Shown here: positions 1 to 28,928 of the stretch, one piece after another
How positions within the stretch are numbered: the first letter of the stretch is position 1
Layout of the letters: each line of letters opens with the position of its first letter
Virus record (IMG/VR): IMGVR_UViG_3300042320_001097
Location: 1-31,735 of that record
Source: a virus
Length of the DNA: 31,735 bases
Strand: one strand, 5' to 3'
The notes under the pieces: model-generated
The model's database searches: none
The model's input: only the letters and a program-made list of their open reading frames with translations
Told to the model about the DNA's origin: nothing
Program-made: the position numbers and the translations under genes

Positions 1-60
1 GTCGGCTGCGGCAGCCCGCAGGCAGAGCTGCAAAAAGCAAAGGCCAGGGGTGCGCTGTGA
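1..60 (+). CDS. C-terminal end of an upstream gene (partial)
   Basis: An open frame enters from the left edge in frame 1 and ends at a TGA at 58-60. Only 19 residues are visible (ending KARGAL), too few to identify a family. The stop overlaps the GTG of the next gene in a GTGA junction, the same coupling used between the following genes, so this fragment is probably the end of another member of the same operon. Its identity could reveal one more step of the modification cassette. Confidence 0.5.
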   Translation, partial: VGCGSPQAELQKAKARGAL

Positions 61-584
61 AGACCGTGCTTTACGTCGTCGGAGCGCCCGGTGTAGGTAA
101 AAGCACTGCGCTCACCGGACTACTCGACAAGTGGGCCACCGCGCTTGTTCAGTCCCCAAAGTGGACATTGAGTGCGCCGATTGCTCTCGTTGGTCACTAC
201 GTAAAGGGCGGCCATGATGGCGGCGACACCGTTCCCTACGACGGTGCGGCAGAGTGCTTGACGTACATGCGCGATGTTCTGTTGCAAGATCACCGCCTGC
301 ATGGCTTTGTGCTGGATGGTGACCGCTTTACAACCTCTACCTGCCGTCAGTTCACTGACGGCCTACCTGGCATCCGTGTTGTGTGTGTTCATCTACAAGC
401 CAGTGACGCAACACTCACAGCCAGACGGACAGCCAGGGGCAGCACGCAGAACCCAACATGGATGCTCGGCCGCAACACGAAGGCGGCACGGTTTGCTGAC
501 AGCTTCCCCGACGCGGTACGGCTGCAGACTGATGAAATGAGGCCGGATGAAGTCACCCAGGCAATACGGGAACTGTTGCGGTGA
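57..584 (+). CDS. P-loop kinase, 5-hydroxymethyl-dU DNA kinase-like
   Basis: The 175-residue product has a Walker A loop GAPGVGKST at residues 9-17, a second conserved block around 45-60 (GHYVKGG...GGDTVPYD), a Walker B-like stretch FVLDGDRF at 84-91, and a late basic block with RG at 126-127 followed by QNPTWMLGRNTK. This order (lG.Y, GxD, lxGDRf, Rg..q...gR.TK) is what I remember of phage 5-hmdU DNA kinases, which phosphorylate 5-hydroxymethyluracil within DNA to make a leaving group for later substitution. The match is from memory, not from a search. The start is GTG at 57, with AGGGG 6 bases upstream and a GTGA overlap with the preceding stop. It overlaps the sulfotransferase-like gene by 4 bases. 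A generic nucleotide kinase is the alternative, but the amino acid:DNA transferase-like gene three genes downstream favours the DNA-modification role. Confidence 0.72.
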   Translation: MKTVLYVVGAPGVGKSTALTGLLDKWATALVQSPKWTLSAPIALVGHYVKGGHDGGDTVPYDGAAECLTYMRDVLLQDHRLHGFVLDGDRFTTSTCRQFTDGLPGIRVVCVHLQASDATLTARRTARGSTQNPTWMLGRNTKAARFADSFPDAVRLQTDEMRPDEVTQAIRELLR

Positions 585-1624
585 GCGCATCGCCAGTCGC
601 ACTTGCAGAGCCAGATCTTGCGAAAGTGAAAGCTTTGCTTCTGGACACGGCATCACCCGTACACGGTGATCCATCGTGTGTAGTGGTGTTGTTGTCTGCG
701 AGCCGTAGTGGAAGCAGCACGGTGCATGACCTGCTGGCCCGGTGCGATGCCGTCGCGGCCTTGCCAGGAGAGATTGAGCCATACCTGCGATTGACTGGTA
801 ACGCGCAAGGCGTAGATGGAAGTAACGAGGTCACTTCCTTCACAAACATCGAAGAACTGCGCGCGCTTGTCCGCACGGATCTGCGCCTATGGTCGCAACC
901 TCTACCGCTGGTTCATGGTTCTGATTGGCATCAGCGTCGCCTGTTGTTTCAGTCTCCTATGGGCTTGGAGCTGGACGAAGGCTGGTATGACGGTTGCAGC
1001 AGACCGCCCGCTTCCAATCTCACGGTCTTGGAAGAGCCGCCACTGGTTCCAATAGCAGATGCGGTGAAGCCGGGTAGCCTAAACGGCGTCAAACTCATAC
1101 TCAAAACACCACAACTCGTCTATCGACGTGGGCTGGTGGAGGCGCTGTTTCCAAACAGTCCGGTTCACTACCTACACCTAAGACGCAGCGCGCCGGGGAC
1201 TGTCAACGGACTGCTTGATGGGTGGCTTGGTCCACACTTTTGGTCATATCGACTACCAGCGCCTGATGGGGCGGCGATGCCTGACTGGTGGTGCTTTGAT
1301 GTGCCGCCAGGATGGCACGCGACACGAGGACTGCTTGATGCCTGTGTGCTGCAATGGGTTGCCGCCAACACGGCTGCGCTTCTGCACCCGCTGGTGGGGC
1401 ATCTCCACTACGAGGACTTGTGGAGGCCGCAAGCAGAGCAACGAATAGCAGCCGCTTGTGGGATTGCCGTTGAGGCACGGCTACGTACAGTGATGGCGAC
1501 AGAACAGCCGGCTGAAAGACGCTGGGCAACCAAGCGGCCAGAACTTGCAGGCTTGATGGAGAGGAATGACGTTACACAGCTCATGGAGCAGCTGGGTTAC
1601 GTGAATGGAGGTGTCCAGTGGTAG
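581..1624 (+). CDS. Sulfotransferase-like protein
   Basis: This 347-residue protein has a PAPS-sulfotransferase-like 5'-phosphosulfate loop, SASRSGSS at residues 39-46, after a hydrophobic strand (CVVVLL). An acidic GEIEPYL segment follows at 63-69. A second strand ends in YLHLRRSAPGTVNG at 197-210, which resembles the 3'-phosphate binding site (strand, Arg, Ser/Asn further on). The length fits the family. Sulfotransferases move a sulfo group from PAPS to a hydroxyl or amine. Here the gene sits between a 5-hmdU kinase-like gene and an amidinotransferase-like gene with 4- and 7-base overlaps, so the acceptor may be a modified base, a precursor, or a small amine; that is inference. The GTG start at 581 is fixed by the GTGA overlap. 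Some sulfotransferase-fold proteins have other activities, so the reaction is not certain. Confidence 0.6.
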   Translation: MSASPVALAEPDLAKVKALLLDTASPVHGDPSCVVVLLSASRSGSSTVHDLLARCDAVAALPGEIEPYLRLTGNAQGVDGSNEVTSFTNIEELRALVRTDLRLWSQPLPLVHGSDWHQRRLLFQSPMGLELDEGWYDGCSRPPASNLTVLEEPPLVPIADAVKPGSLNGVKLILKTPQLVYRRGLVEALFPNSPVHYLHLRRSAPGTVNGLLDGWLGPHFWSYRLPAPDGAAMPDWWCFDVPPGWHATRGLLDACVLQWVAANTAALLHPLVGHLHYEDLWRPQAEQRIAAACGIAVEARLRTVMATEQPAERRWATKRPELAGLMERNDVTQLMEQLGYVNGGVQW

Positions 1625-2451
1625 GGTTACAGGTCGTCAACCCGGATGGTCGGCTACGTTCAGTGCTGGTATCCAGTGCTGACAAGCTTGCGGCATCCTT
1701 GCCGGCCGCTGTTCCCGCAAGCTGGCTCGCCATGCCAGACGCAAAGGGTCTGATGGCAGAAGTGGAAGCATTCCACGACTTCTTGCGATCGCGCTTGCAG
1801 CTTGTTGTTGTCGACGTGGCCGACGCAACGCTGTTTGATGGCCTGTATGCGCGCGATTACGGCGCCGTCGTCAATCAGACGCTGTATCTGATGCGCAGTC
1901 CAGTGCCGCATCGTGCGCCAGAACGAGACAGGGTGGCTGACGAGCTGCAAAGGCTTGGAATCAAGGCAGTGTGCGCGCCAGATGATGTCTATGGTGAGGG
2001 AGCAGACCTGCTTCCGCTTTCGCAGGGCCGATGGGCAATCGCAACCGGACGGCGCACAACACAAGGCATGGCCTTATGGATGCGCTCGCAGCTTCCATCA
2101 GATCAAGTCCTCTATCGAACCAAAAAGCGTGGACCTGATGTGCCTCAGCACCTGCTGGGTGGCAACCGCATCCTCAACGGGGTGCTTTACCACCGCGCAG
2201 ATGTCGAGCCACTGCCAGGATGGACGGGCGAGTGCGTCAGTCTGAATGTCAATGATGAGGTTGGCAGCAAGCTCGGCATGAACTGGCTCGTGCTGGACAG
2301 GGCGGAAGTCGTGATGGCAGAGGACTGCCCAGGAGTGCGAGCCATGCTGGAGAAAAAAGGCATCAAAGTTCATGTTCTGCCGATGGCTAACATCAGGGCA
2401 ATGGGGGGCGGCTTTGCCTGCGCCACGTTGCCGCTGTGGAGAGATCTATGA
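1618..2451 (+). CDS. Pentein-fold amidinotransferase / amidinohydrolase-like protein
   Basis: The 277-residue product resembles the pentein superfamily (glycine amidinotransferase, dimethylargininase, arginine deiminase). Visible features are ARDYGAVV at residues 78-85, EGADLLPL at 127-134, a GRRTTQG turn at 144-150, and a C-terminal glycine-rich motif GGGFACATLPL with the expected nucleophile Cys268. These enzymes attack the guanidinium carbon of arginine-like substrates and either transfer the amidino group to an amine or hydrolyse it. By eye, the usual His-(Leu/Ile)-Asp motif before the last strand appears as VSLN (207-210), so the general-base His may be replaced or supplied elsewhere, for example by H178. 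The start is GTG at 1618 with GGAGGTG at 1607-1613; a later start is unlikely because MVGLQVVNPDG begins the first strand. It overlaps the sulfotransferase-like gene by 7 bases and the next gene by 4. Confidence 0.68.
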   Translation: MVGLQVVNPDGRLRSVLVSSADKLAASLPAAVPASWLAMPDAKGLMAEVEAFHDFLRSRLQLVVVDVADATLFDGLYARDYGAVVNQTLYLMRSPVPHRAPERDRVADELQRLGIKAVCAPDDVYGEGADLLPLSQGRWAIATGRRTTQGMALWMRSQLPSDQVLYRTKKRGPDVPQHLLGGNRILNGVLYHRADVEPLPGWTGECVSLNVNDEVGSKLGMNWLVLDRAEVVMAEDCPGVRAMLEKKGIKVHVLPMANIRAMGGGFACATLPLWRDL

Positions 2452-3404
2452 CAGATGCGCTTGATCCAACGTCATGGCCCTTGTGGTCTGTGTTCATTCG
2501 CTTTGCACGTCGTCAGCTGGAAACGCTCGACTACGACCCGTTCCATCCGATGCTGGTGCACCTACAGCGCGGCACGAGTGTTGATGAAGGCTTGTGGTCC
2601 AGCTTCCTTTACATGGCCTTCTACAACCTGGGATCAGCCTACTGTGCGTGGACAACAACACGTCCGATGCAGGCACTTCCAGCAATAGCGGACCGATGGT
2701 CTATCGGAACGCAAAGACGCAACCTGCGAGCAAGCAGTGTTTGCAAGCATGTTGAGTCATTGGCATCGCAAGCCAGACCGCACGGGAGCCTCTACAGCTT
2801 CTTCACACATGACTTCACTGGTAACGAAAAGGCAGATTGGCTAAGCCTTCTGAACAGGCTGGAAGGCGTGTGGGGTAACGGAAGGTGGGGCGCTTACACG
2901 ACAGCTGAGCTGCTACAGAAAGTGAACCAGCTACCAGTGCAGCCAGCAACCCTTGGATTGGAAGGAGCCACAGGCCCACGAAAGGGACTGGTGGTGCTGA
3001 CGGGCCTATCAGCGGAAACCAGCACGGAGGTCATGCAGGTGTATGGTGACGCGCTACTGGCCAAGCTACGCAGCCTGTTTCCAAACCCCCGCATCCCCTG
3101 GGCAAGACACGGCATTGACTTCGCAATGACCGAAAGCATCCTCTGCGACTTCTACGGCTTGACCAAGGGTCGCTACTACATCGGGCGGGACATAGACCGT
3201 GAGGCAGGACGGATACTGTCTCAAAGTGGTCGAACTGACGTGGATATGGGTCCCTTGTGGGCCGCACGCGCCACAGTGTTCCCACCTCACCTGCTTGCTG
3301 AGCGACGGAGGACCGTGCTGGACATTGATTATGAAAGAGCGCGGGTCTACAAAGAGACTGGCCTGCTGGCAGACTACCGTGACGACTTCCCTTTGCTGCC
3401 ATGA
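2448..3404 (+). CDS. Amino acid:DNA transferase-like protein (aGPT-Pplase family)
   Basis: This 318-residue, mostly helical protein contains blocks I recognise from the alpha-glutamyl/putrescinyl thymine pyrophosphorylase family, later called amino acid:DNA transferase. They are a helix LYMAFYNLGSAYCAW at residues 54-68, GTQRRNLR at 87-94, VWGNGRWGAYTTAELLQKV at 141-159 and GPRKGL at 176-181. Family members replace the (pyro)phosphate on activated 5-hydroxymethyl-dU in phage DNA with an amine such as an amino acid or putrescine. No search was possible; the call rests on remembered motifs. The ATG at 2448 overlaps the previous stop as ATGA and has GGAGAG a few bases upstream, so it is preferred over the in-frame GTG/ATG codons at 2436-2448. 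It is the last gene of the four-gene overlapping set; a new promoter-like site follows. Confidence 0.7.
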   Translation: MTDALDPTSWPLWSVFIRFARRQLETLDYDPFHPMLVHLQRGTSVDEGLWSSFLYMAFYNLGSAYCAWTTTRPMQALPAIADRWSIGTQRRNLRASSVCKHVESLASQARPHGSLYSFFTHDFTGNEKADWLSLLNRLEGVWGNGRWGAYTTAELLQKVNQLPVQPATLGLEGATGPRKGLVVLTGLSAETSTEVMQVYGDALLAKLRSLFPNPRIPWARHGIDFAMTESILCDFYGLTKGRYYIGRDIDREAGRILSQSGRTDVDMGPLWAARATVFPPHLLAERRRTVLDIDYERARVYKETGLLADYRDDFPLLP

Positions 3405-3411
3405 GTGATTG

Positions 3412-3439
3412 TTGCGCATAACTGCCTGCATGTTAGTAT
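3412..3439 (+). promoter_or_regulatory. Candidate sigma70-type promoter (extended -10)
   Basis: TTGCGC at 3412-3417 is separated by 16 bases from TAGTAT at 3434-3439, which is directly preceded by TGT, giving an extended -10 (TGn). It lies in the 55-base gap after the hypermodification cassette and 20 bases before the ATG at 3460. The -35 matches the consensus at three of six positions, so this is a suggestion only. Confidence 0.35.
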
Positions 3440-3459
3440 GGTGGTGCAAGGGGGCCACC

Positions 3460-3798
3460 ATGATTGACTACAAACAGGCAGTAAGTGGGGAACAGCGTGC
3501 GGCTTGTGCGAGGTTGCAGGCCGACCTGCAGTTAGAGCTGAGCGCACTGCCTAAGCAGGCAAAGTGGCACGAGCGCATCGCCTACAACAACGCAATCGAC
3601 TGGCTCGATAGCGTCATTCAACATGGCGCATACGGTTGCCAGCTGTGCTTTACGAAGCATCCGGTCGTGTTGCGTCTTGCTGCGCATCATGGAGTGCCGG
3701 TAGCGCCCGCCCCGCGTCATGCCACGACTGATGATGTGCGTAGGTTGCGGGAAGGCATCGCGCTGACAGAAAGGGTGCGTCCTAACCTGCGCGCATAG
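3460..3798 (+). CDS. Hypothetical protein, 112 aa
   Basis: I do not recognise this family. The product is soluble and largely helical, with a central YGCQLCF segment (a single CxxC pair) and an arginine-rich C-terminal helix. The ATG at 3460 is chosen over an upstream in-frame codon at 3409 because a strong AAGGGGG stretch (3448-3454) lies just before it. It is the first gene after the hypermodification cassette and is separated from it by a candidate promoter. Its TAG stop (3796-3798) lies inside the first unit of a tandem decamer repeat. Confidence 0.65.
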   Translation: MIDYKQAVSGEQRAACARLQADLQLELSALPKQAKWHERIAYNNAIDWLDSVIQHGAYGCQLCFTKHPVVLRLAAHHGVPVAPAPRHATTDDVRRLREGIALTERVRPNLRA

Positions 3799-3830
3799 GG
3801 GCGCGCAGGGGCGCGTAGGGGCGCGTAGGG
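3791..3830 (+). repeat. Tandem decamer repeat (four units)
   Basis: Four consecutive 10-base units read GCGCATAGGG, GCGCGCAGGG, GCGCGTAGGG and GCGCGTAGGG. Further degenerate copies follow at 3841-3860 (GGCGCATAGGG, then its near inverse CCCATACGCG). The array begins inside the stop region of the 112-aa gene and fills the front half of the 166-base gap before the next start. It could be a protein-binding array or a replication or regulatory element; nothing in the sequence decides between these. Confidence 0.8.
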
Positions 3831-3892
3831 GCCTGTAACGGGGCGCATAGGGTGCCCATACGCGCCAGCACTGGCAACGCATGGCCGGTGCG

Positions 3893-3921
3893 TGCACAGG
3901 GCTAACACCCTACAATATAAC
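3893..3921 (+). promoter_or_regulatory. Candidate sigma70-type promoter
   Basis: TGCACA (3893-3898) and TATAAC (3916-3921) match the -35 and -10 consensus at four and five of six positions, with an ideal 17-base spacer. It lies between the decamer array and the ATG at 3965, in a local AT-rich patch that is unusual in this GC-rich region. Transcription would start near 3927 and read into the 115-aa gene. Confidence 0.45.
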
Positions 3922-3964
3922 GGCAGCGCAACACGGTACAGCAAACAGTAAGGCAGATCAAAAC

Positions 3965-4312
3965 ATGACTATCTGGACAATACGGGAAGCTGGCGATAAC
4001 AAAAGCGTGGGGGCTGACGGGCAGGTGGTGTTCGACCCCAGCTTTTCGCCTAACTGGCTGCAGATGCCCGATGACCTCGGCGGACAGCAGCATCGTGTCG
4101 CTGGCAGCTGCTGGATGTCGTGCGCGCCCAACCCGGAAAGAGATCTGAATGACCAGTCAACGTGGTGGCTGGAGCAGAAAACACGCTGGCACGTTCTGGC
4201 TGACTCGCCGATGGTCGTGGCCGAGGTGGTGGGCAAGGGCTGGGTTGTGATTGAGCCTGGACCGGAGGCGCGCTCGTTCCTTATGAGGCTCGCCAAGCTG
4301 GAAAAGCTCTAA
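3965..4312 (+). CDS. Hypothetical protein, 115 aa
   Basis: The product is unrecognised. It is a small soluble protein with many Trp residues (for example WTIREAG near the start, CWMSC and STWWLEQ mid-protein) and no membrane segment. The ATG at 3965 is preferred over the earlier in-frame start at 3881, because the latter would lie upstream of the candidate promoter and inside the AT-rich control region. AAGG about 12 bases upstream is a weak ribosome site. A long hairpin follows 13 bases after its stop and separates it from a convergent minus-strand gene. Confidence 0.6.
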   Translation: MTIWTIREAGDNKSVGADGQVVFDPSFSPNWLQMPDDLGGQQHRVAGSCWMSCAPNPERDLNDQSTWWLEQKTRWHVLADSPMVVAEVVGKGWVVIEPGPEARSFLMRLAKLEKL

Positions 4313-4325
4313 GACGCAAGGCCGC

Positions 4326-4369
4326 ATCTCATGCCGCCGCCCGGTTCAGCCCGGCGGCAGGTATGAGAT
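4326..4369. terminator. Long hairpin between convergent genes (possible bidirectional terminator)
   Basis: ATCTCAT (4326-4332) pairs with ATGAGAT (4363-4369), and GCCGCCG (4333-4339) pairs with CGGCGGC (4352-4358), leaving a 4-base bulge. The structure separates the plus-strand 115-aa gene from the minus-strand 105-aa gene, whose stop codon (4346-4348) lies in the loop. Neither side has a good T-run, so it may act as an RNA-stabilising structure rather than a classical intrinsic terminator. Confidence 0.55.
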
Positions 4370-4663
4370 AAGGTAGTGCACACCACCACCATCCATCAGA
4401 AAGGTGCCGCCGGCCAGAAGGCCGTGGAAGTCCAGCGTCACGCTATCGCCGTTGTGTACGTGCATAAACGCACCGCTGGGGAACGTAAACGTGGCGTCAC
4501 CGCTATGGGCTTCTACGTGAAGGTGGTGTATTGCCGCACCACCGTCAATCACTAAGGTGGTGAGGGCAGACACTTCACCACCAAGCACGACGAGCTGGCC
4601 GCTGGTGGTGGGTCGCCCGTCCGCTGCTCCTGCTACCCGGTCGTTCCAAGCGTGAGTGGCCAA
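4346..4663 (-). CDS. Hypothetical beta-rich protein, 105 aa, lone minus-strand gene
   Basis: This is the only minus-strand gene I support in the left arm. The product is rich in Gly, His, Val and Thr with alternating hydrophobic residues (LTTLVIDGGA, IHHLHVEAHSG, VTLDFHG), which suggests a small beta-sandwich or decoration-like domain; I cannot assign a family. The TTG start at 4663 has GAGG 6 bases upstream. No better downstream start was found. Its 3' end folds into the long hairpin. It is head-to-head with the zinc-ribbon gene at 4722, with only 58 bases between them. It could be a late-acting accessory gene inserted in the early region. Confidence 0.6.
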   Translation of the reverse strand: MATHAWNDRVAGAADGRPTTSGQLVVLGGEVSALTTLVIDGGAAIHHLHVEAHSGDATFTFPSGAFMHVHNGDSVTLDFHGLLAGGTFLMDGGGVHYLISYLPPG

Positions 4664-4721
4664 TCTTCACCTCAAAGACAGCGTAGCGCAGGCGTGCGTC
4701 AAGCGCCCGGAGGACCTACAT

Positions 4722-5009
4722 ATGAGTGGAGGCATCATGTCAGGGCTACTGTGTGAGAAGTGTGACAGTGGGACAAAGGTTGTAGACAGCCGTTGCACCC
4801 CGCATCCAGATACACCGATCGCAGCGAGGCGCGCGGCGATGGCGTGGGGTGGTATTGATGAGAGCTGGCAGTGTCGCCGTAGGGTTTGCTCTACCTGCTT
4901 CGCAATCAGCTGGACGATTGAGATGCCGATGACCACGCTGATGGACCTGATGATGCTGGTTGAGCAGGGCAAGGCCAAAAACGTAGTCGCAGCTCTGCAA
5001 GGAAAGTAA
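4722..5009 (+). CDS. NrdR-like zinc-ribbon protein, 95 aa
   Basis: The N-terminal half resembles the zinc ribbon of NrdR: CEKC at residues 11-14, then VVDSR at 20-24, an arginine-rich turn, and CRRRVCSTC with the second pair C56/C59. In NrdR this ribbon binds NrdR boxes upstream of ribonucleotide reductase genes and an ATP-cone follows. Here no ATP-cone is present and the protein is shorter, so DNA or RNA binding is likely but the target is unknown. The ATG at 4722 is set by GGAGG (4709-4713) 8 bases upstream; an alternative ATG at 4737 with its own GGAGG would remove five residues and leave all four cysteines. The next gene starts 5 bases after its stop. Confidence 0.65.
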   Translation: MSGGIMSGLLCEKCDSGTKVVDSRCTPHPDTPIAARRAAMAWGGIDESWQCRRRVCSTCFAISWTIEMPMTTLMDLMMLVEQGKAKNVVAALQGK

Positions 5010-5014
5010 GGCTG

Positions 5015-5344
5015 ATGCCTGCAATCGGTCTGGTTCTAATGGTCAAGCTCACGGCTTACACAGCCGACTGCACTGGATGCAGTGGTGTCATGGCGGACGG
5101 GCGGCGTGCGGACCACCGCCTGCAAGTCGTTGCTGCAAGCAAGGCATGGCCGCTCGGCACATGTCTGGAGCTGGAGCTTGGAGGCGACAAGCATCGTGTG
5201 CAGGTGGCTGACAGGCTTGGTCCTCGCACACGCCAACAACCCGGAGCAGACCGGCATCTGGACTTGCTGGTTGAGAGCACGGCCCAGGCTCGCGCTATGG
5301 GTGTTCAGCAAGTGCGTGCGCGGGTTGTGTCGTGCAAGAGCTAA
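5015..5344 (+). CDS. 3D-domain / RlpA-like double-psi beta-barrel protein, 109 aa
   Basis: The protein matches the 3D (three-aspartate) barrel found in MltA and stationary-phase secreted hydrolases: LTAYTADCTGCSGVMADG at 12-29, WPLGTCLEL at 45-53, VADRLGP at 64-70 and DRHLDLLV at 79-86, with Asp66, Asp79 and Asp83 as candidate catalytic or fold aspartates. Such barrels cut or bind peptidoglycan. There is no convincing signal peptide, so it would need a holin or act on another target. The ATG at 5015 follows AAGG by 4 bases; an ATG at 5039 is possible. The next gene begins inside its last codons. Confidence 0.62.
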   Translation: MPAIGLVLMVKLTAYTADCTGCSGVMADGRRADHRLQVVAASKAWPLGTCLELELGGDKHRVQVADRLGPRTRQQPGADRHLDLLVESTAQARAMGVQQVRARVVSCKS

Positions 5345-5769
5345 CCTTGCCTCAACGTGTGGCTGCCGCGCCGTGGTGGCGCTGGCCCATCGGCTGTGCG
5401 GTGCGCACGCCCGGCTGCGCGGATCTGCTGCGGGTGGTGGGGCACCAGCACGTGCAGCGGGCGCCGCACCTGCGCCTGCGGGTGCACGCGCGCGGGCTGG
5501 TGGAGCTGACGATGCGGGCCACGGCCTGCGCGCCCGCGCTGGACGACGACGCCACCGCCGCGCTGCTGCTGGCGGCCCTGTGGGCGCACGACCCCGAGTG
5601 GCACACCCACCACGACGCGGAGGGCTACGTGGCGCACGTAGACCCGCGCAGGGGCGAGTGGACGGCGCAGGTGCGGGGCGAGGCGCTGGCGCTCGCTGCG
5701 CTTGCCTGCCTTGGCGAGAACGGGATGGCGGGCGTCTGGCCTGCAATCAAAACAAAGGATGAACCATGA
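5332..5769 (+). CDS. Hypothetical protein, 145 aa
   Basis: No family is recognised. The sequence is strongly GC-rich compared with the genes before it and is rich in Ala, Arg, His and Trp. An acidic stretch ([19 protein letters not shown]) and a [10 protein letters not shown] helix suggest a helical soluble protein. The GTG start at 5332 overlaps the preceding stop by 13 bases, and its end overlaps the dUTPase start as ATGA, which supports the frame. It appears to belong to the same transcription unit as the nucleotide-metabolism genes. Confidence 0.6.
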
Positions 5770-6212
5770 CAACCCGTGACCATCACGTGCTCGTGCACGC
5801 ATCGCCTGCTGCTGTGGGCCTCCCCGAGTACGCAAGCAAAGGGGCCGCAGGCGCGGACCTACGCGCCGCGTCCGCCGTAGTGCTGGACCCTGGCTGCACC
5901 GCGCTGGTGCCGACCGGCATCAGCCTGCAGCTGCCGCCCGGTGTGGAGGCGCAGGTGCGCCCACGCAGCGGGCTGGCAATGAAGCACGGCATCACCGTGC
6001 TCAACGCGCCCGGCACCATTGACAGCGACTACCGGGGCGAGGTCAAGGTGTTGCTGGTGAACCACGGACGGGATGCGGTGCAGCTGGAGCGCGGCGACCG
6101 CATCGCGCAGCTGGTGCTGGCCCCGGTGCTGAGGGGCGTGTGGCTACCCGTGGACGAGCTGGACGAAACGGAGCGCGGGGCTGGTGGCTTTGGCTCAACG
6201 GGTCGCACATGA
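5766..6212 (+). CDS. dut: dUTP diphosphatase (trimeric dUTPase)
   Basis: All five trimeric dUTPase motifs are present in 148 residues: AGADLR (29-33 region), PRSGL (66-70), GTIDSDYRG (83-91) with the catalytic Asp, RGDRIAQL (109-116), and the glycine-rich C-terminal arm [10 protein letters not shown] (137-146). It hydrolyses dUTP to dUMP and pyrophosphate. This limits uracil in DNA and supplies dUMP, the precursor of dTMP and, in hypermodifying phages, of hydroxymethyl-dUMP. The length is normal and the enzyme looks complete. The ATG at 5766 and the stop at 6212 both form ATGA overlaps with neighbours. In this genome it plausibly feeds the modified-base pathway encoded at 57-3404. Confidence 0.95.
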
Positions 6213-6751
6213 AGACGCGGGTCCTGCATCTTGCACTACGAGCAGACGGACCCGCGCCGTGGTCCCCTTGGATCACCGCCTGTGGGCGCAAGGAATGGGA
6301 AGAAGATCTGGCAACCGACGAAACGAAAGTGTCGTGTAAGGCGTGCCTGAGAACTGAGGCTGGGAGAGACGCGGTGGCAGAACAGACGGTGCTGGCTATG
6401 GGGCTAAGCCCCACGCCCGCCGCCACGTGCGCCACCGTGCCATGCGATCAAGAAAAAGGACCAACCCCGCTGGAGACTGGGCTACTTATCAACCTTCCAC
6501 CTCAACTATTGGTGGACATACAGGCACGCGCCGCCTTGGGGCGCGACAAGTATGGAATGCAGCTGCGCGCACCGTGGCCGCAGGGGCTGAACGAGGCACT
6601 GCCCGAGCTGCTGGATGCGGTTGCATACCTATTGTCCAGCGGCCATCCAGACTCGACCTCGCTCGTGCGCCAGCTGGTGCCCATCATCGGGCAGCTGCAC
6701 CGGCTGCTGCGCGGCGAGCCAGCGTGGCCAGCATCGCCCGAGGCGCTGTGA
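6209..6751 (+). CDS. Zinc-site plus MazG-like helical protein, 180 aa
   Basis: Two parts are visible. The first 50 residues carry a likely zinc site (H7, C25, C43, C46 in VLHLAL, TACG and SCKAC) of a type common in small phage proteins. The second part (about 86-150) contains [14 protein letters not shown] and [17 protein letters not shown], which resembles the all-alpha MazG/dNTP pyrophosphohydrolase helices with an E..LD metal-binding pattern. It may hydrolyse a nucleotide to tune pools for DNA synthesis, in line with the adjacent dUTPase. The ATG at 6209 overlaps the dUTPase stop as ATGA and is preferred over the in-frame codon at 6140 inside dut. The full EExxE..D set is not clear, so activity is uncertain. 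Confidence 0.6.
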
Positions 6752-6833
6752 TGCGCGGCGGGCACCGCTTCCTCGGTGCAGTGTAAAAAGCGTGGATGGC
6801 CAAAGTCATTGTGAGTGAAGGAGGTATAGGATA

Positions 6834-7232
6834 GTGACACAAGATCAGGTATGCGAAGTGATTGTTGGCCTCGGTGGCAAAGAATACCCCGATGCCCAAA
6901 GGTCAGGCGCTACTCGCTGCTTCTACATGAAGCGACTTGTTGGTGTAGCAAAGTGCGGCCTAAACGACAGGGCGCCGAGCATTCACGTCATCACCCATGC
7001 CGACTTTGAGGACACCTACAATAATCAACGGTTTGACGGTGGCGTTGAGTTTACGGTTAGTGGTCAGGCTGGTGGCGGGCGCTGGATGAAAGCTCTGATC
7101 TACGGCGTTAGCCGTGATGAAGTGCAAGGTCTGATGCCAACAATCGAAGCAACGGCAGCTGCCGTATGGTCGGCTTTCGTGGCCTCGCTTGAACACGAGG
7201 ACAAGGCAACTGCCAGCAACAACGGCGACTGA
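6834..7232 (+). CDS. Hypothetical protein, 132 aa
   Basis: The product is unrecognised: a soluble mixed alpha/beta protein with VCEVIVGLGG near the N-terminus, GGVEFTVSGQAGGGRW in the middle and a long C-terminal helix. The GTG start at 6834 has a perfect AAGGAGGT (6818-6825) 8 bases upstream, the best ribosome site in the window, which predicts strong translation. An 82-base gap before it contains a small hairpin (GCACCG 6762-6767 / CGGTGC 6774-6779). It is the last plus-strand gene; the minus-strand structural operon converges on it. Confidence 0.7.
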   Translation: MTQDQVCEVIVGLGGKEYPDAQRSGATRCFYMKRLVGVAKCGLNDRAPSIHVITHADFEDTYNNQRFDGGVEFTVSGQAGGGRWMKALIYGVSRDEVQGLMPTIEATAAAVWSAFVASLEHEDKATASNNGD

Positions 7233-7302
7233 TGAGGTGTAGGGTTTACGGTTGCCACGTGGCGCACCGCTAACCCCGCGCCGCAAGGGGCAAGGCAGCC
7301 TG

Positions 7303-7521
7303 TTAGGGCCGCGCTACACCACCCCTGCGTGCAACGGCTACCCGCAACACCGGCCCGGCTTGTGGTGTGTTTATGGGCGCTGTGGGTGCGGGCGCCGCAT
7401 CTTCACGGTGATTGCGCACCATCTGCAGTGGAGCCGTGCCAAGCTCTACACGGCAGGTGTGCACATCATCCCGTGCAGCCATCACCAGTGCGAGCAGTTC
7501 ATCCCGCAGGCTGTATGTCAT
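7303..7521 (-). CDS. Hypothetical protein, 72 aa
   Basis: This small protein is unrecognised. It has a helical, Leu/Ala-rich first half (LRDELLALVMAARDD) and a Pro/Ala-rich tail. The ATG at 7521 is supported by GGAG 8 bases upstream and by an ATGA overlap with the stop of the gene before it (7518), the usual arrangement in this operon. It is the final gene of the minus-strand late operon. A plus-strand frame over the same bases is discussed separately and considered less likely. Confidence 0.58.
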   Translation of the reverse strand: MTYSLRDELLALVMAARDDVHTCRVELGTAPLQMVRNHREDAAPAPTAPINTPQAGPVLRVAVARRGGVARP

Positions 7522-7820
7522 GGCAGGCGCTCCAAGGTGGTGTGGATCTGCTGTAGTGATTGATCCACGCTCACAAGTCGCTGGTCAATGCGGGCAAGTA
7601 GCTGCTGATCTGATCTCTGGTGCTGTTCCAGCTGTGCAACGCGAGGCACAAGCTGTGCACCCTCCGTGCGGTCGCTCACCGTTTTCAGCTCGTCCAAACG
7701 ACGATGAAGGGTGGCGATGTGCTCCCGCGTCCTATCACTTGTGCGAACCCACACGCGCTCCAGTGTCACCAGGGCGGACAAGGCAAGGCCCGCCCAGCCC
7801 ACTACCTCGTCCGCCGTCAC
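7518..7820 (-). CDS. Small membrane-anchored coiled-coil protein (holin- or spanin-like context)
   Basis: The 100-residue product starts with a moderately hydrophobic segment (VVGWAGLALSALVTLERVWV, about residues 6-25). A charged coiled-coil region then runs to the end, with heptad-like Leu/Val/Ile spacing (ATLHRRLDELKTV, RVAQLEQHQ, LLARIDQRLVSVDQSLQQI). This layout is common in small phage membrane proteins coded after tail fibres, including holin-like and Rz-like proteins, but no specific family motif is visible. The GTG at 7820 overlaps the previous stop as GTGA. One transmembrane segment and a cytoplasmic coil is the simplest model. Confidence 0.62.
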   Translation of the reverse strand: MTADEVVGWAGLALSALVTLERVWVRTSDRTREHIATLHRRLDELKTVSDRTEGAQLVPRVAQLEQHQRSDQQLLARIDQRLVSVDQSLQQIHTTLERLP

Positions 7821-8125
7821 GGCTGCACCCGGCGCCGTGCAGGCGGTATGGCGTCGGCGGGCGGCGCCGCCGCAGCGGCAGCCGTAGCCACGGCAGGCGC
7901 GCCTATCGCATCCGTGGTGGGGATCTCACGACCCTCTACCACGTAGCGAAGGTCGGCCTGCCGCAGCGCGAGGCTGTGCACGTCCACGTCGGGGTGCTCG
8001 GGGTCGTTGACCCCACGCACCGCCAGCAGCACCACCATCCCCTGCAGGAACGGGTGCTGCACCAGCGAGGCGGCGCGCAGCGTCACCTCGCCGGTAGGGC
8101 TGGCCCAGCGGACGAGCACAGCCAC
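7817..8125 (-). CDS. Hypothetical protein, 102 aa, downstream of tail fibre
   Basis: I cannot assign a family. The first two thirds look beta-rich (VRWASPTGEVTLRAASLV, MVVLLAVRGV, DVHSLALRQADLRYVV) and the C-terminus is an Ala/Pro-rich low-complexity tail. The GTG start at 8125 lies 5 bases after the tail-fibre stop; the ATG at 8130 is in a different frame. A four-base overlap links it to the membrane coiled-coil gene. It could be a small structural or fibre-assembly protein. Confidence 0.6.
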   Translation of the reverse strand: MAVLVRWASPTGEVTLRAASLVQHPFLQGMVVLLAVRGVNDPEHPDVDVHSLALRQADLRYVVEGREIPTTDAIGAPAVATAAAAAAPPADAIPPARRRVQP

Positions 8126-8129
8126 GGCA

Positions 8130-9449
8130 TCAGCCCAGGTAGTTCGCGGTGATCACGTCATCCACGGTCGGCGCGGTGCCGCCCAGGGTGACGCGGGTCT
8201 TGCTGGTGCCGGTGTTGCGATCCACCACGAACTCGCCATCGCCGGGCGTGCTGGCCACGGAGAGAAGAAGCTGGCCGTTCAGGGCCACCATGACGCCGGG
8301 GTAGAACTCGCTGCGGATGTCCTGCGACAAGTCGTAAGCGAGCGCGGTGCCGCCGGTGAAGCTCTGCGCGTAGGGCCGGAACCCGGCCTTTGCGAGCGTC
8401 ACGGCGTTGTCGGCGATCTTGCCCGTGACCACCGCCCCGTTCGCCAGCTGCGTGGTGCCCACGCCACCGTCGGCGATCTTGACACCCGTACCGCTCTGGC
8501 CCAGGGTGCCACCGTCGAGCAGAAGGGTGACGAACCCGCTGCCGTCGATCTGCACACCACCCGTGGCCTTGACGGCCAGCGCGCCGGACGAGAACTCCAG
8601 ACCCTTGTTTGCGGCAAGGCCAACGGAAAGACCGTCTCCATCCTTGATGATGCCGCTGTTCGACTTGATGCGGACGGTCAGTCCGTTGCTGTCCGCGATC
8701 AGGCCGGGGTTGCTGGCGTTGAGCTTCAGCTGCACGCTGTCGGACAGCACCTGCACGCCGTTGCTGGTGTTCACCGACAGGGTGTTCCCCGTTTTGGCCA
8801 GACCGTCGCCGGCCACAATGCTGGCGGCACCAGTGAACTGAACGAACGTGATGGCCGTGCTGCCCAGCGTCACAGCGTCGTTCGTGCACACCCAGCCGGT
8901 GTCGGCGTTGCCCGTGCCCTCGCTGACGAAGATGGCGGCGCTCGGGAACTCGCTGCCGGCGTCGAGGTCGGCAGCGCGCGAGGCGGCACCGGACGCGGGC
9001 GCCACGTACACGCCGTTTTGGCTGCCCGTGGACTGGCCGATCAGCAGGATGCGGTCGCCTTCCACCAGCGTCACGCCGTCCACGGTCTGCCCCGCCGCCA
9101 GCGCCGTGCTGATGTCCACGTTGGCGATGGCCACCACGCGGGCGGGCTGCTTCCACTTGATGCCCTGGGCCACGCCGTCCACGTAGGACTTCGTCGCCAC
9201 GTCGTCGGACGCGCTCGGGGCCGCAGCGCGCAGGGTGCCGCTGGTGAAGCTCCACGTGCCGGTGAGGTCAGCCTTGCCGGCGGTCACGGCGTTGGCCGCG
9301 AGCTTTCCGGTGGTGACGTTCAGATCAAGGATGGCGGCGGTATCCACCGCATCGTTCGCGAGCTTGCCGGCGGTGACGGCGTTGTCAGCCAGCTTGCCGG
9401 TGGTGATGCTGAGGTCTGCGAACTGCCGGGTAACGAACTGCAGGGCCAT
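8130..9449 (-). CDS. Tail fibre protein
   Basis: The 439-residue protein is built from short glycine- and threonine-rich beta repeats typical of trimeric phage fibres. Its N-terminus holds a 30-residue repeat with TTGKLA(D/A)NAVTAGK. The middle has DVATKSYVDGVAQGIKWKQPARVVA, a motif frequent in phage fibre stalks, and blocks such as SNGLTVRI, GDGLSVGL and GGVQIDGSG. The C-terminal part (FTGGTALAYDL, MVALNGQLLL, DVITANYLG) may be the distal receptor-binding or trimer-forming region. The ATG at 9449 has GGAG 5 bases upstream. No peptidase or endosialidase motif is visible. Confidence 0.82.
   Translation of the reverse strand: MALQFVTRQFADLSITTGKLADNAVTAGKLANDAVDTAAILDLNVTTGKLAANAVTAGKADLTGTWSFTSGTLRAAAPSASDDVATKSYVDGVAQGIKWKQPARVVAIANVDISTALAAGQTVDGVTLVEGDRILLIGQSTGSQNGVYVAPASGAASRAADLDAGSEFPSAAIFVSEGTGNADTGWVCTNDAVTLGSTAITFVQFTGAASIVAGDGLAKTGNTLSVNTSNGVQVLSDSVQLKLNASNPGLIADSNGLTVRIKSNSGIIKDGDGLSVGLAANKGLEFSSGALAVKATGGVQIDGSGFVTLLLDGGTLGQSGTGVKIADGGVGTTQLANGAVVTGKIADNAVTLAKAGFRPYAQSFTGGTALAYDLSQDIRSEFYPGVMVALNGQLLLSVASTPGDGEFVVDRNTGTSKTRVTLGGTAPTVDDVITANYLG
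9276..9416 (-). repeat. 90-base tandem repeat coding the fibre N-terminal repeat
   Basis: Two closely similar 51-base blocks (9276-9326 and 9366-9416) are spaced exactly 90 bases apart and encode a 30-residue repeat (TTGKLA.NAVTAGK). A weaker related block appears near 8390-8455 (TQLANGAVVTGKIADNAVTL). Repeats of this type in fibre stalks allow change in length by recombination. Confidence 0.75.
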
Positions 9450-9497
9450 GACTGCTCCAAGCGGTGAGTGCCGTTGAGTGCTGTGCTGGTGGCCCGT

Positions 9498-9872
9498 CTA
9501 CGCAGGTCGGTAAGCCACCTCTATACCGCTTGGAGAGGCTGGGGGGAAGGGTAGTGTGAAGGTGGTGGACGAGCTTTCCGAAAAGTCTGTTAGCCGTAGC
9601 CGCTGGCCGCTGTCATATACTTGGAGGCTACCGGGATAATACGCAGCAGGCACAGTGAACACGGTGCGCACACCATCCACCTGAGCGGTCAGGTCGGCAC
9701 GCAGCAGCGCGGCGCGCACGGCGCGCGTAGCCACCACCACCGCGCCAGTGTAGTCCTGGGCGGGGCTGGGCGCTGTGGTCGCCTGCAGCAGCGGGTCCGG
9801 GTTGTCCTCGGTTGTCCAATACACCAGCACGCCATCACTTACCCGACGTGCACGGTTTACGTACTGCAGCAC
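9498..9872 (-). CDS. Hypothetical tail-associated protein, 124 aa
   Basis: This small beta-rich protein is encoded between two fibre-like genes. Residues near the C-terminus (VRTVFTVPAAYYPGSLQVYDSGQ) resemble the 'T.F.L...p..gsl.vy.nG..l' pattern common in phage fibre and tail-tip domains. The GTG start at 9872 follows GGGAGG by 4 bases. A likely role is a tail-tip or fibre-attachment component; the exact family is not known. Confidence 0.62.
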   Translation of the reverse strand: MLQYVNRARRVSDGVLVYWTTEDNPDPLLQATTAPSPAQDYTGAVVVATRAVRAALLRADLTAQVDGVRTVFTVPAAYYPGSLQVYDSGQRLRLTDFSESSSTTFTLPFPPASPSGIEVAYRPA

Positions 9873-9881
9873 GATGCCTCC

Positions 9882-10715
9882 CTACTCGATGCGCAGGCCG
9901 GCGAAGCCAACGATGCCAAGGTCGTCCGGGTCGCTGGCGTCCACGAGATCGGCGTGCAGCTCGTACACTCGCGAGCTGGACCGCAGGTTACCCGGCTGCG
10001 TGCCAACGGTCAGGCCCGCGCTGAGCACGGCCACGGGCGCAGCCCCCGTGCGCGCCACCACAGCACCCGTCACGTACTCGGCATCGCCCACGTTCCACAG
10101 CCGGACCCGCACCTGCCACCCGCCGGCAGTGCTGAGCACGGACTGCAGGCGCACCGTGCGCCCGTCAGGGTAGTCGGCAGGGTTCCACGGCACGGCAGCC
10201 AGCACGCGCACACCGTCGCGGTCTGTGACAAGCTGCTGCCCGCACCACACCATCGGCTGATGCAGCGGCGCCGGCACGTAGCTGGGCAGCTGCCCCGCGC
10301 CCTGGCTTGCCAGCACTCGGCCAGCCGTGCCCACCGCAAGGCGCGCCCACGTGCCTTGTGTATCGCGTACCAGCAGGTCGCCCGTGGTCTGCCCGGCGAC
10401 GCCTACGGCCAGAGACACAGGACCACCAGGGCCGCCATCGGCCAAGGTAAGGCCAACACCTGCGGTCAGCACTCGTTCTGCAGTAAGGCCCGCGCTTGTC
10501 CCGATGACCACGTAGCTGGCGTCGGTGGGCGCGCCGCCACCCTGACCACCAGACACAAGGTCGAACGACAGCGTAGCCGGGTTCCACGAAAGCGTGGACC
10601 CCTCGGCTGTCTGCACCGTAGCACTTGATCCAAGCTTAGGCGCGTGACCGGCAAGGTTGAGTAGCGCGATGCGCTCGGCAGGGCTACCACCGCCACCAGC
10701 ACGACCGGACATCAT
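9882..10715 (-). CDS. Tail fibre / tail-tip protein, 277 aa
   Basis: The centre of the protein contains GDLLVRDTQGTWARLAVGTAG followed by RVLAS and LPSYVPAP, a block common in phage fibres (GDLlyr...arLaiGt.GqvL...g.p.W). The N-terminal part is Gly/Ala rich and the C-terminal part is a beta-rich domain (GGWQVRVRLWNVGDAEYV). The ATG at 10715 forms an ATGA overlap with the preceding gene; the Met at the next codon is an equal alternative. Position after the hub-like gene suggests a fibre that attaches to the tail tip. Confidence 0.72.
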   Translation of the reverse strand: MMSGRAGGGGSPAERIALLNLAGHAPKLGSSATVQTAEGSTLSWNPATLSFDLVSGGQGGGAPTDASYVVIGTSAGLTAERVLTAGVGLTLADGGPGGPVSLAVGVAGQTTGDLLVRDTQGTWARLAVGTAGRVLASQGAGQLPSYVPAPLHQPMVWCGQQLVTDRDGVRVLAAVPWNPADYPDGRTVRLQSVLSTAGGWQVRVRLWNVGDAEYVTGAVVARTGAAPVAVLSAGLTVGTQPGNLRSSSRVYELHADLVDASDPDDLGIVGFAGLRIE

Positions 10716-24362: not shown

Positions 24363-24897
24363 TGGGTCCTCCACTACCGAAACGGATGCCAGCCTGGGTG
24401 CGTAGCTCGGCACCCATCACCAGCACAAATGCACGCAGCAATGCTGGTCGCAAAGCCGGATCGCTTACCGTCCACCACAACACGTCACGCCCCTGCATGA
24501 CGCGCGTTCCTTCCACAACCCACGGAGCGTGGGTTGGAACCTGCACCATCCAGCCGACTAAGTAGTATGGGCGTGAACCGCCACCACCACCAGCACGAAA
24601 CTTCAGAAGGCCCTGCAGCCGTGCGGCCATCAGGCCAGTGCGCTCATGGACGACGTGCGGCTGACTGGGATGAATGTTGATTGAGCCATGACGCTTTGCG
24701 TATGGGTGATCCATGCGGCGCAGCTGCGCAAGGCTGTGGTCATTGCGTGTAAGGTTGGCATATACCGCCGTCATCGCGACTCCACCAACCTTGGTCAATG
24801 CCCTGCCAGCCGCCGCACGGATGAACTTGTCTTTCAGATCACGGAGGTTGATGACCGTTGCCTCGATCCCAACCACACGTGTCTTGTCACGTGGCAT
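24352..24897 (-). CDS. HK97 gp10-like / tail neck protein, 181 aa
   Basis: Order and composition fit the HK97 gp10-like proteins that lie just before the tail completion gene: a helical N-terminus (VINLRDLKDKFIRAAAGRALTKVGGVAM), a mid segment with RTGLMAARLQGLL, and the C-terminal LLRAFVLVMGAELR. The ATG at 24897 has GAGGG 8 bases upstream; it overlaps the glycosyltransferase stop (24887) by 11 bases. The Gly-rich loop RAGGGGGSRPYY is unusual. I recognise the family by position more than by motif. Confidence 0.6.
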   Translation of the reverse strand: MPRDKTRVVGIEATVINLRDLKDKFIRAAAGRALTKVGGVAMTAVYANLTRNDHSLAQLRRMDHPYAKRHGSINIHPSQPHVVHERTGLMAARLQGLLKFRAGGGGGSRPYYLVGWMVQVPTHAPWVVEGTRVMQGRDVLWWTVSDPALRPALLRAFVLVMGAELRTQAGIRFGSGGPNVP

Positions 24898-27715: not shown

Positions 27716-27763
27716 GCTGGCTCCCCGCCTCCTGGGCGTGTGTGGGTGCACAGCGTATCTCAC

Positions 27764-28926: not shown

Positions 28927-28928
28927 AA

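Follow-up and report, generated by a model that had tools for sequence, protein, structure and literature searches.

A NucO/NucN-family gene pair among phage DNA-base modification genes: a possible sulfo-guanidino tailoring module

Phages tailor the bases of their DNA with amino acids, among other groups. Sugars, amines and carbamoyl groups are also known to be used, according to PMC12783734. A second line of precedent comes from the antibiotic nucleocidin of Streptomyces calvus, whose sulfamate requires nine cluster genes plus PAPS genes according to PMC10946740. There, knockout of nucN, nucO, nucK or the PAPS genes nucA/nucW abolished sulfamylation, and nucN/K/O complementation was achieved in two species. 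The same paper treats the annotation of NucO as tentative, cites an earlier study that tied nucN, nucK and nucO to fluorination, and describes the CurM and OLS sulfotransferases as activating their substrates by sulfonation. The effect of the PAPS-gene knockouts could run through NucK rather than NucO. A literature search, with incomplete coverage of key papers, found no report of the cassette described below.

We analysed a viral window (the whole 31,735-nucleotide stretch of DNA) whose first base is base 7421 of a 79-kb parent contig, L002. At its left end lies an operon that runs, in the parent contig, in the order TET/JBP oxygenase, P-loop kinase, sulfotransferase-fold gene (ST), amidinotransferase-fold gene (AmT) and ADDT:

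1 to 60, + strand: last 19 codons and stop of a TET/JBP 2OG-Fe oxygenase gene, truncated at the left window end
57 to 584, + strand: P-loop kinase, presumed hydroxymethyl-pyrimidine kinase (AAA_33 30.6 against 27; Ploopntkinase3 27.4 against 27)
581 to 1624, + strand: ST, 347 aa, GTG start, sulfotransferase-fold protein of the NucO/AcmO family
1618 to 2451, + strand: AmT, amidinotransferase/DDAH-fold guanidino enzyme of the NucN/AcmN family (PF02274 28.9 against 22.8)
2448 to 3404, + strand: ADDT, amino acid:DNA transferase (PF18724 64.5 bits against 26.2)

The original prediction of a sulfotransferase-like gene between a kinase and an amidinotransferase holds: the open reading frame is real, with the kinase upstream and an ADI/amidinotransferase-fold gene downstream. 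Adjacent genes share a few bases at each junction: GTGA at 581, 7 bases at 1618 and ATGA at 2448. ParB, TET/JBP, kinase and ADDT belong to a single gene run with overlapping ends (L002 5847-10824), in which the TET/JBP gene occupies 6575-7480 (PF12851, 87.4 bits). The PF18748 5-hmdU DNA kinase was rejected as a label, with no match anywhere in the parent record; the window kinase is PF18751-like, as in phages Phelemich and Tonitrus. Neither RNA families nor tRNAs were found in the window.

The identification of ST as a sulfotransferase is borne out by its predicted fold and by PF13469 matches in its relatives. The window protein itself scores below threshold against Sulfotransfer_3 (14.6 bits against a cut-off of 27, E 0.04) and is one of the 2 that fail where 29 of 31 aligned family members match PF13469 at E<=0.01; relatives pass the Pfam sulfotransferase cut-off (L007 48.6, L074 44.0, S. 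calvus NucO 45.1 bits). Because it falls below the gathering score, we file it as a NucO-family, sulfotransferase-fold protein and not as a proven PAPS sulfotransferase. The AF2 model (pLDDT 84.0, pTM 0.87) matched STF9 (Z 13.5), CurM (13.2), TPST1 (12.9) and 4gox (12.8) in VIA fold comparison, and among the matches listed 50 of 50 were sulfotransferases. With Foldseek, tick TPST (5.9e-4) was the only PDB entry to reach E<=0.001, others being weaker, and the best BFVD matches were generic viral sulfotransferases (E 1.7e-4 and 1.8e-4). CurM/OLS sulfotransferases are the best PDB sequence matches of the family and also among its best fold matches. In single-sequence PDB searches, the window ST found only an unrelated transposon protein (E 0.13) and the L074 ST only antibodies. 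Fold and family together rule out a chance resemblance. The notion of ST as a second NucK copy was likewise discarded: viral profile A2 misses S. calvus NucK at E<=1e-3 and finds S. calvus NucO at 8e-64 and 5e-66.

Searches from the antibiotic side lead back to the same pair. With S. calvus nucO as the phmmer query, the viral STs are retrieved (E 1e-26 for the window, 2e-20 to 1e-48 for others), and nucN recovers the viral AmTs (8e-10 for the window, 4e-7 to 2e-29 for others). By sequence, ST is assigned to the NucO/AcmO family and AmT to the NucN/AcmN family, with AcmO/AcmN tied in by gene order. A guanidino-enzyme neighbour, from the amidinotransferase or arginase family, accompanies 47 of the 50 bacterial ST homologues found: AmT is adjacent in 12, and an arginase-family gene lies within about 1.6 kb in 35, as with the NucO of Burkholderiales. 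The three loci with neither partner are two contig ends and S. calvus, whose AmT is about 9 kb off. On the S. calvus contig (locus L079, where labels nucG to nucO were assigned by gene kind, from Pfam, and order), nucO/nucN share the sequence with two sulfatases, radical SAM/B12 and nucK genes, a methyltransferase, rubrerythrin and a gyrase-methyltransferase. At least one of nucG,I,J,K,L,P,Q occurs in 11 of 12 bacterial AmT loci (the exception is L068). At E<=1e-4 the viral flanks, about 8 kb at most, yielded none of these genes. Calling the viral locus a sulfamate cluster was rejected on these missing companions, and a finished nucleocidin-type sulfamate ester is therefore not expected from the pair alone.

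Residues of both enzymes were examined in family alignments. For ST, an alignment of 31 members (13 viral and 18 of the 50 bacterial) contains 23 invariant columns, and the following sites stand out:

695 to 718, + strand: 5'-phosphosulfate loop S-A-S-R-S-G-S-S, residues 39-46 (R42, G44, S45 in 31/31)
770 to 772, + strand: E64, putative catalytic base, the Glu within GE(x)EP (31/31)
1103 to 1105, + strand: K175, Lys of KTP(Q) (31/31)
1184 to 1210, + strand: candidate 3'-phosphate site R202...N209-G210 (R202, G210 31/31; N209 30/31)

The loop aligns to the PRSGST/PRSGTT loops of 4gox/CurM and TPST1. The 'GE' of E64, the candidate catalytic base, aligns to the TPST1 'GE', and K175 aligns with the Lys of DKSP in CurM/4gox, in stretches scoring near zero. 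R202 falls on the TPST1 Arg, within the LRRS...N stretch (residues 200-209). Other sulfotransferases carry a Ser eight residues after this Arg (R+8); the ST family has Gly there in 31/31, and the printed TPST1 alignment ends at R+7. The loop and the LRRS...N region had been put forward as the two PAPS contact sites. That proposal is partly supported: the family keeps the 5' loop, a candidate catalytic Glu, a candidate Lys and the Arg of the 3' site, and lacks the usual Ser. The PAPS site appears partly canonical.

The neighbouring AmT carries a recognizable active site:

2419 to 2421, + strand: C268, predicted catalytic Cys, in the profile column of Cys249 of P. aeruginosa DDAH

This column holds Cys in 21 of 22 aligned AmTs and a gap in one. 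The AmT profile keeps seven DDAH active-site residues (D66, R85, E114, D117, R132, H162, C249), whose roles we assume to be those of DDAH, so that an arginine-type substrate is expected. The pentein fold, with its Cys-His-Glu/Asp site, reaches VIA Z of about 27-31 to ADI, bacterial DDAH, AGAT, HsvA and SxtG. Fold and residues of this kind are common to hydrolases and transferases; AmT may act as a hydrolase, DDAH being its best PDB sequence match.

Whether ST recurs next to hmdU-kinase-like genes of other phages had been set as a test, and its linkage with a kinase and with genes for base modification does recur across distinct viral loci. We counted 13 distinct viral STs, of which L009-L011 are close to each other, after dropping identical-protein copies (L015, L072, L073) and L017, which is L007's contig. 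AmT is present in 12/13 of these loci, a P-loop kinase in 11/13 and an ADDT or TS-family gene in 13/13; E-values of this gene-family search are circular, because the models were built partly from those loci. Independent Pfam support is as follows. PF18724 (ADDT) was found in 6 of 14 records, one (L015) a copy, all 6 passing the cut-off in the record scan (hmmscan of the L070 protein gave 25.6 against 26.2). Across the 13 viral records, PF00303 occurs in 8 (7 above cut-off), PF12851 (TET) in 3, PF00145 in 1 and the PF18748 kinase in 2 (1 above cut-off). P-loops occur in the short kinases of L009-L016; among these, the proteins of L009, L010, L012, L014 and L016 gave no Pfam match above cut-off. 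No ADDT was found in the records of the seven TS-type phages, whose sequences are fragmentary or of unknown completeness.

Searching from the partner genes gave a similar picture. An AmT-only scan returned 12 contigs, 11 already with ST and a 12th that starts at its AmT. The survey is incomplete because loci were found through short motif patterns; the AmT scan missed L071 and L074, for example. From the ADDT side (5 loci), L005 and L006 carry ADDT and kinases without ST and L008 gave a weak match, so that ST linkage is not universal seen from this side. In the tree, the window ST pairs with the L069 ST (100/99), and the two lean, weakly supported (84/86), towards the clade of the sulfamate clusters; the tree neither establishes nor rejects a single viral clade (AU p 0.316).

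Named phages show the base-modification genes without the pair. A DNA search of named phages found no close relative of the window, five viral STs (window, L007, L010, L071, L070) found no match in a 50,697-record phage collection, and the L016 AmT found none in the named-phage collection. A control for ordinary phage sulfotransferases, with S. calvus NucK against named phages, also returned no match and is uninformative for that reason. ADDT homologues occur in 17 records of cultured actinophages in the collection without a match to the five STs.

The original prediction spoke of hmdU-kinase-like genes. A kinase does stand beside base-modification genes; the specific base is less settled, with Asp-type (dCMP-like) TS-family genes in 7/13 viral loci (L009-L014 and L016) and a window kinase outside PF18748. 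The L071 TS-family gene is also Asp-type, the L007 TS has Asn, the second TS-family gene of L010 is nearest to CMP/dCMP hydroxymethylases, and L069 carries a C5-methylase gene. No C5-methylase was found in the window's parent record, which has TET/JBP. The modified base may be hydroxymethyl-cytosine or hydroxymethyl-uracil.

There are several possible explanations for the pair. From the computed folds, the families to which the proteins belong, the order and overlap of the genes, and their conserved partners, we lean towards a sulfo-guanidino (S-N bond) tailoring module, formed by the NucO-family ST and the NucN-family AmT, within a phage DNA-base hypermodification operon. It had been suggested that ST sulfates the base or a precursor amine, or provides a leaving group; these options are now narrowed, and S-N chemistry (sulfo-guanidino or sulfamate) is favoured over plain O-sulfation because the NucO/AcmO family travels with guanidino-acting enzymes. 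Plain O- or N-sulfation of a hydroxymethyl base or amine, with AmT separately capping or amidinating another amine and no S-N guanidino chemistry, would fit the sulfotransferase fold and conserved residues, and L070, with ST, kinase and ADDT and no AmT in its 42-kb record, indicates that ST can occur without AmT. We nonetheless judge it unlikely, given the AmT/arginase-family pairing in 12/13 viral and 47/50 bacterial loci and the need, according to PMC10946740, for both NucO and NucN to make one and the same group.

The substrate-activating CurM/OLS enzymes, as best PDB sequence matches and among the best fold matches, lend some colour to a sulfo leaving group, in which ST would sulfate the 5-CH2OH, as CurM/OLS do an alcohol, and an amine or amidine would displace the sulfate. 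Known base-modification pathways use phosphate as the leaving group, a job that the P-loop kinase in 11/13 loci could do here, and the arginase/AmT pairing would be left unaccounted for; we regard this reading as improbable. Production by ST and AmT of a small molecule, a sulfamate or sulfated guanidine aimed at the host or one of its proteins, or at the virion, with no involvement of DNA, draws on the bacterial homologues, which sit in clusters resembling small-molecule pathways. It is highly improbable in view of the ADDT or TS-family gene in each of the 13 viral loci, the TET genes in three and PF18748 kinases in two, and the position of ST and AmT between kinase and ADDT within an overlapping-gene run in both the window and L069. 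Least of all do we expect a degenerate, non-PAPS ST that binds substrate for an AmT yielding a guanidino-modified base: the Gly at R+8 would suit it, and R42, G44, S45, E64, K175 and R202, kept in 31/31, argue for a retained active site.

For the favoured sulfo-guanidino module, the donor, acceptor, order, product and protective role that we infer would be as follows. TET/JBP oxygenase would form a 5-hydroxymethyl pyrimidine, the P-loop kinase would place a phosphate on the hydroxymethyl, and ADDT would swap this phosphate for an amine-bearing group. AmT would then act on a guanidino group derived from arginine, and ST would put sulfuryl, probably from PAPS, on a guanidino nitrogen. The final base would bear an N-sulfoguanidino or, after cleavage, a sulfamate-type group, whose negative charge could block host nucleases. 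Since the operon holds homologues of the gene pair needed for nucleocidin's sulphur-nitrogen group, the DNA of the virus may itself come to bear sulphur. More tentatively, and short of an even chance in our estimate, the phage would put an S-N group on a DNA pyrimidine through a module shared with sulfamate-antibiotic clusters, NucO itself forming the S-N bond when it transfers sulfuryl to a guanidino nitrogen.

We know of no natural DNA base that bears a sulfo group; if true, such a group would add a chemical class to the known base modifications and a type of anti-restriction charge not described before. The cassette is also of interest for the question of how nucleocidin and ascamycin acquire their S-N bond. 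Phage NucO-NucN pairs, without the other cluster genes in their flanks, and Burkholderiales NucO with its arginase-family enzyme may therefore offer simpler settings for NucO assays.

Compared with known systems, the closest on the DNA side are Tonitrus (Rhodococcus), Phelemich (Mycobacterium) and MO526 (Microbacterium), the three cultured actinophages examined, which hold together TET, kinase and ADDT genes homologous to the window's, without ST or AmT. Tonitrus and Phelemich also have the ParB homologue, making all four genes, whereas MO526 has three of four; against PF12851, the TET protein of Tonitrus scores 32.2 and that of Phelemich 22.3, both short of the cut-off of 34.9. We take Tonitrus-type loci to be phage thymidine hypermodification loci and place Phelemich and MO526 there by homology. 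Where the window has ST and AmT, Phelemich and MO526 have an FAD/DAO-type oxidoreductase in the locus and Tonitrus a neighbour without a Pfam match. Like T4-type 5hmC pathways, seven ST-bearing viral loci have TS-family genes with Asp at TS-177; the tailoring genes of T4 are glucosyltransferases, whereas those of ST-bearing loci are a kinase, ST, AmT and an APH-type phosphotransferase. The saxitoxin pathway also combines an amidinotransferase, SxtG, which is among the AmT fold matches, with sulfotransferases, although it makes a small molecule and the likeness of the STs there is one of co-occurrence rather than family comparison. Both members of the nucleocidin pair, NucO and NucN, have homologues in the phage ST and AmT, and both act on a nucleoside; the nearest folds of NucO named in PMC10946740, CurM (4GBM) and 4GOX, are top matches of the phage ST too. 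In nucleocidin, however, the two are part of at least 11 sulfamylation genes serving a ribose 5'-OH, none of the others being found in the phage flanks, and the phage pair is flanked instead by kinase, ADDT, oxygenase or TS-family genes.

By itself, the 347-residue protein encoded at window positions 581-1624 (+), an open reading frame that is present as the original prediction described, scores only 14.6 bits against Sulfotransfer_3, whose cut-off is 27. A distant phage (L007), in which an amino acid:DNA transferase (ADDT, PF18724), a homologue of this sulfotransferase-fold protein (ST) and an amidinotransferase/DDAH-fold gene (AmT) are mutually adjacent, encodes an ST with 34% identity to that of the window across 216 residues, and this relative lies over the PF13469 cut-off at 48.6 bits. 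Profile scans recovered further viral relatives and 50 bacterial ones. In an alignment of 31 STs (13 viral and 18 of the 50 bacterial), PF13469 is matched at E<=0.01 by 29. The AF2 model of the window ST (pLDDT 84.0, pTM 0.87) gave a single Foldseek match at E<=0.001, a tick tyrosylprotein sulfotransferase, with ranks 1-27 all sulfotransferases; with VIA-align, 50 of the 50 matches listed are sulfotransferases.

VIA-align matches to the window ST model (structure, Z, rmsd, number aligned)
STF9, 13.5, 4.0, 248
CurM, 13.2, 4.0, 208
STF1, 13.0, 3.9, 237
TPST1, 12.9, 3.5, 213
4gox, 12.8, 4.5, 207

Residues R42, G44 and S45 of the loop, E64, K175, R202 and G210 are each kept in 31 of 31 aligned STs. 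In a profile alignment to TPST1, the loop falls on PRSGTT, the GE of E64 falls on a GE that we take to contain the catalytic Glu, and R202 falls on the Arg of RDGRASVH. The 3′-phosphate site of known sulfotransferases has Ser at R+8. The SASRSGSS loop and the LRRS...N region had been proposed as two PAPS contact sites; both exist, but the second is non-canonical, with Gly at R+8 and Asn just before it in the 31-member alignment, and we therefore regard PAPS use, as read from these alignments, as likely.

The window is a virus record 31,735 bases long. Window bases 1-11,401 are identical to a stretch of the 79,355-base IMG/VR contig IMGVR_UViG_3300034019_000950, which extends the gene cassette at its 5′ side. 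Its order is as follows:

ParB_N gene, 5′ of the TET/JBP gene in the longer contig
TET/JBP 2OG-Fe oxygenase (PF12851, 87.4 bits), L002:6575-7480 on the parent contig, with its body in the longer contig; the window opens within its last 19 codons
P-loop kinase
ST, window 581-1624 (+)
AmT, window 1618-2451 (+)
ADDT

Adjoining cassette genes share a few bases at their ends, which suggests a single transcript with translational coupling. A dUTPase (window 5766-6212; PF00692, 121.8 bits) fits a phage managing its own pyrimidine pool. Three minus-strand genes close to one another (24887-27763, 28417-28932 and 29591-30661) encode a large protein of the glycosyltransferase-2 type, a SAM methyltransferase and a sugar epimerase that depends on NAD; these are possible virion or surface glycan genes.

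Distinct viral STs number 13 (window/L002, L069, L007, L074, L070, L071, L009-L014 and L016). AmT is present in 12 of these loci; the exception, L070, has none anywhere in its 42-kb record. A P-loop kinase accompanies 11 (it is absent from L007 and L074) and is immediately 5′ of ST in 10. ADDT occurs in six loci and a thymidylate-synthase-type (TS, PF00303) gene in the remaining seven, about 5.8 kb off in L016. When scanned from the AmT side, 12 contigs were found, 11 holding ST, and the twelfth (L087) begins inside the cassette. Record-wide Pfam searches placed TET/JBP in L002, L069 and L074, the TS family in L007, L071, L009-L012, L014 and L016 (L013 by a local model), and PF18748 above its cut-off in L070 only. 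A candidate 5-hydroxymethyl source is present in 12 of the 13 viral records, with none seen in that of L070.

The AmT model (pLDDT 91.6) matches arginine deiminase, arginine dihydrolase, bacterial DDAH and the amidinotransferases HsvA, SxtG and AGAT, with Z of about 27-31. Its profile retains D66, R85, E114, D117, R132, H162 and C249 of P. aeruginosa DDAH, which presumably serve guanidino binding, carboxylate binding and catalysis, and these seven columns are kept in 21 or 22 of 22 aligned AmTs. The retained residues thus point to an arginine-like substrate side, and fold and residues would fit transfer or hydrolysis alike.

One of the bacterial ST relatives, L055, belongs to Streptomyces calvus T3018. 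On its contig (L079), the viral ST profile matches an ST homologue at 5e-66 and the AmT profile an AmT homologue at 5e-43, in the company of two sulfatases, a radical SAM/B12 protein, a strong Sulfotransfer_3 protein, a methyltransferase, rubrerythrin and a gyrase B-methyltransferase fusion. This is the set that a section of PMC10946740 gives for nucleocidin, and for ascamycin an excerpt of PMC4257720 lists acmN, acmO, acmP and acmQ in a row, acmO being entered as hypothetical; from these matches we assign the labels NucO to the ST homologue and NucN to the AmT homologue. NucK was ruled out as counterpart of the viral ST, having no match to the viral profile. According to the same section of PMC10946740, knockouts of nucN, nucO, nucK, six further cluster genes and the PAPS genes nucA and nucW lost sulfamylation, kept fluorination and were complemented; it also terms the sulfotransferase annotation of NucO tentative and states that an earlier report on nucN, nucK and nucO conflicts with a sulfamylation role. 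In a passage of PMC9113183, AcmN is described as a proposed S-N bond-forming enzyme, and an additional enzyme would be required.

AmT adjoins ST in 12 of the 50 bacterial loci, and an arginase-family gene lies within ~1.6 kb of ST in 35 (L035:7231-9976, where it scores 62.4 bits with PF00491, and 34 more among L020-L067), from Oxalobacteraceae, other Burkholderiales and Kerfeldbacteria/Parcubacteria. A SAM-type methyltransferase is close to ST in 34 of these 35. Only three loci have neither neighbour: the contigs of L019 and L065 stop 350 and 713 bases past ST, and AmT is ~9 kb from ST in L055. NucN-type AmT was absent from all five bacterial genomes tested (L019, L020, L026, L035 and L057). 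Other nuc homologues occur in 11 of the 12 bacterial AmT loci (the exception is L068) and in L065, with none in the flanks of the viral ST loci. The regular companion of NucO is a guanidino-acting enzyme of either of two unrelated folds. Given this pairing, the main new clue to ST function, the ST substrate is probably a guanidino group or a product thereof.

In a Deltaproteobacterial MAG (L064:7099-9649), the NucO and NucN frames are each broken into several ORFs, through either decay or assembly error. Salinispora mooreana, an actinobacterium, carries a NucO-NucN pair (L068:7383-9718) and may, judging by its flanking genes, be a further place where the pair acts alone.

In the most likely scheme, ADDT would put an amine on the 5-CH2 of the pyrimidine, ST would sulfate a guanidino nitrogen and AmT would move or cleave that guanidino group; that the amine would then bear an N-sulfoguanidino or a sulfamate-type end group is a guess.

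The residue falling on TS Asn177, a column that we take to be position 177 from the E. coli TS motif, is Asp in 11 TS-like proteins from seven loci (L009-L014 and L016) and in L071, and Asn in L007. The second TS-like protein of L010 is nearest to CMP and T4 dCMP hydroxymethylases (3e-22 and 4e-20), far ahead of TS (2e-10), and the first is divergent, with CMP hydroxymethylase nearest (0.002). Asp at this position is the dCMP-specific form according to a passage of PMC8670742. With both Asp-type and Asn-type genes across the loci, the cassette seems to be used by hydroxymethyl-C and hydroxymethyl-U phages; the window's phage may carry either base. TS-type phages have one or two divergent dCMP-hydroxymethylase-like genes (L010:10819-13412, L014:6569-11679, L012:9107-10841), and between or beside such genes, near kinase-ST-AmT, is an APH-type phosphotransferase (PF01636 in L010, L012, L013 and L014) that may phosphorylate the hydroxymethyl group. 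The nearest relative of the window cassette, L069, has a C5 cytosine methylase (L069:12193-13065; PF00145, 141.9 bits), the only one found by record-wide Pfam search of the 13 viral records, which suggests that TET acts on 5-methylcytosine in that phage.

No title or abstract in the literature searched described a sulfotransferase in phage DNA modification, though prior mention elsewhere is possible, and neither 'sulfotransfer' nor 'amidinotransfer' occurs in the main text of PMC8670742 or PMC12783734. Relatives of the window ADDT are found in 17 records from Gordonia, Mycobacterium, Microbacterium and Rhodococcus phages. In the three phages examined (Tonitrus, Phelemich and MO526), TET, ADDT and kinase homologues are grouped together, and a ParB homologue was found in Tonitrus and Phelemich. 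Whereas the window cassette adds ST and AmT, Phelemich and MO526 have a FAD/DAO-like oxidoreductase as their extra gene, and that of Tonitrus has no Pfam match. Because the backbone in cultured phages carries a different extra gene, ST and AmT seem to sit in the slot of a tailoring gene within a recognised locus.
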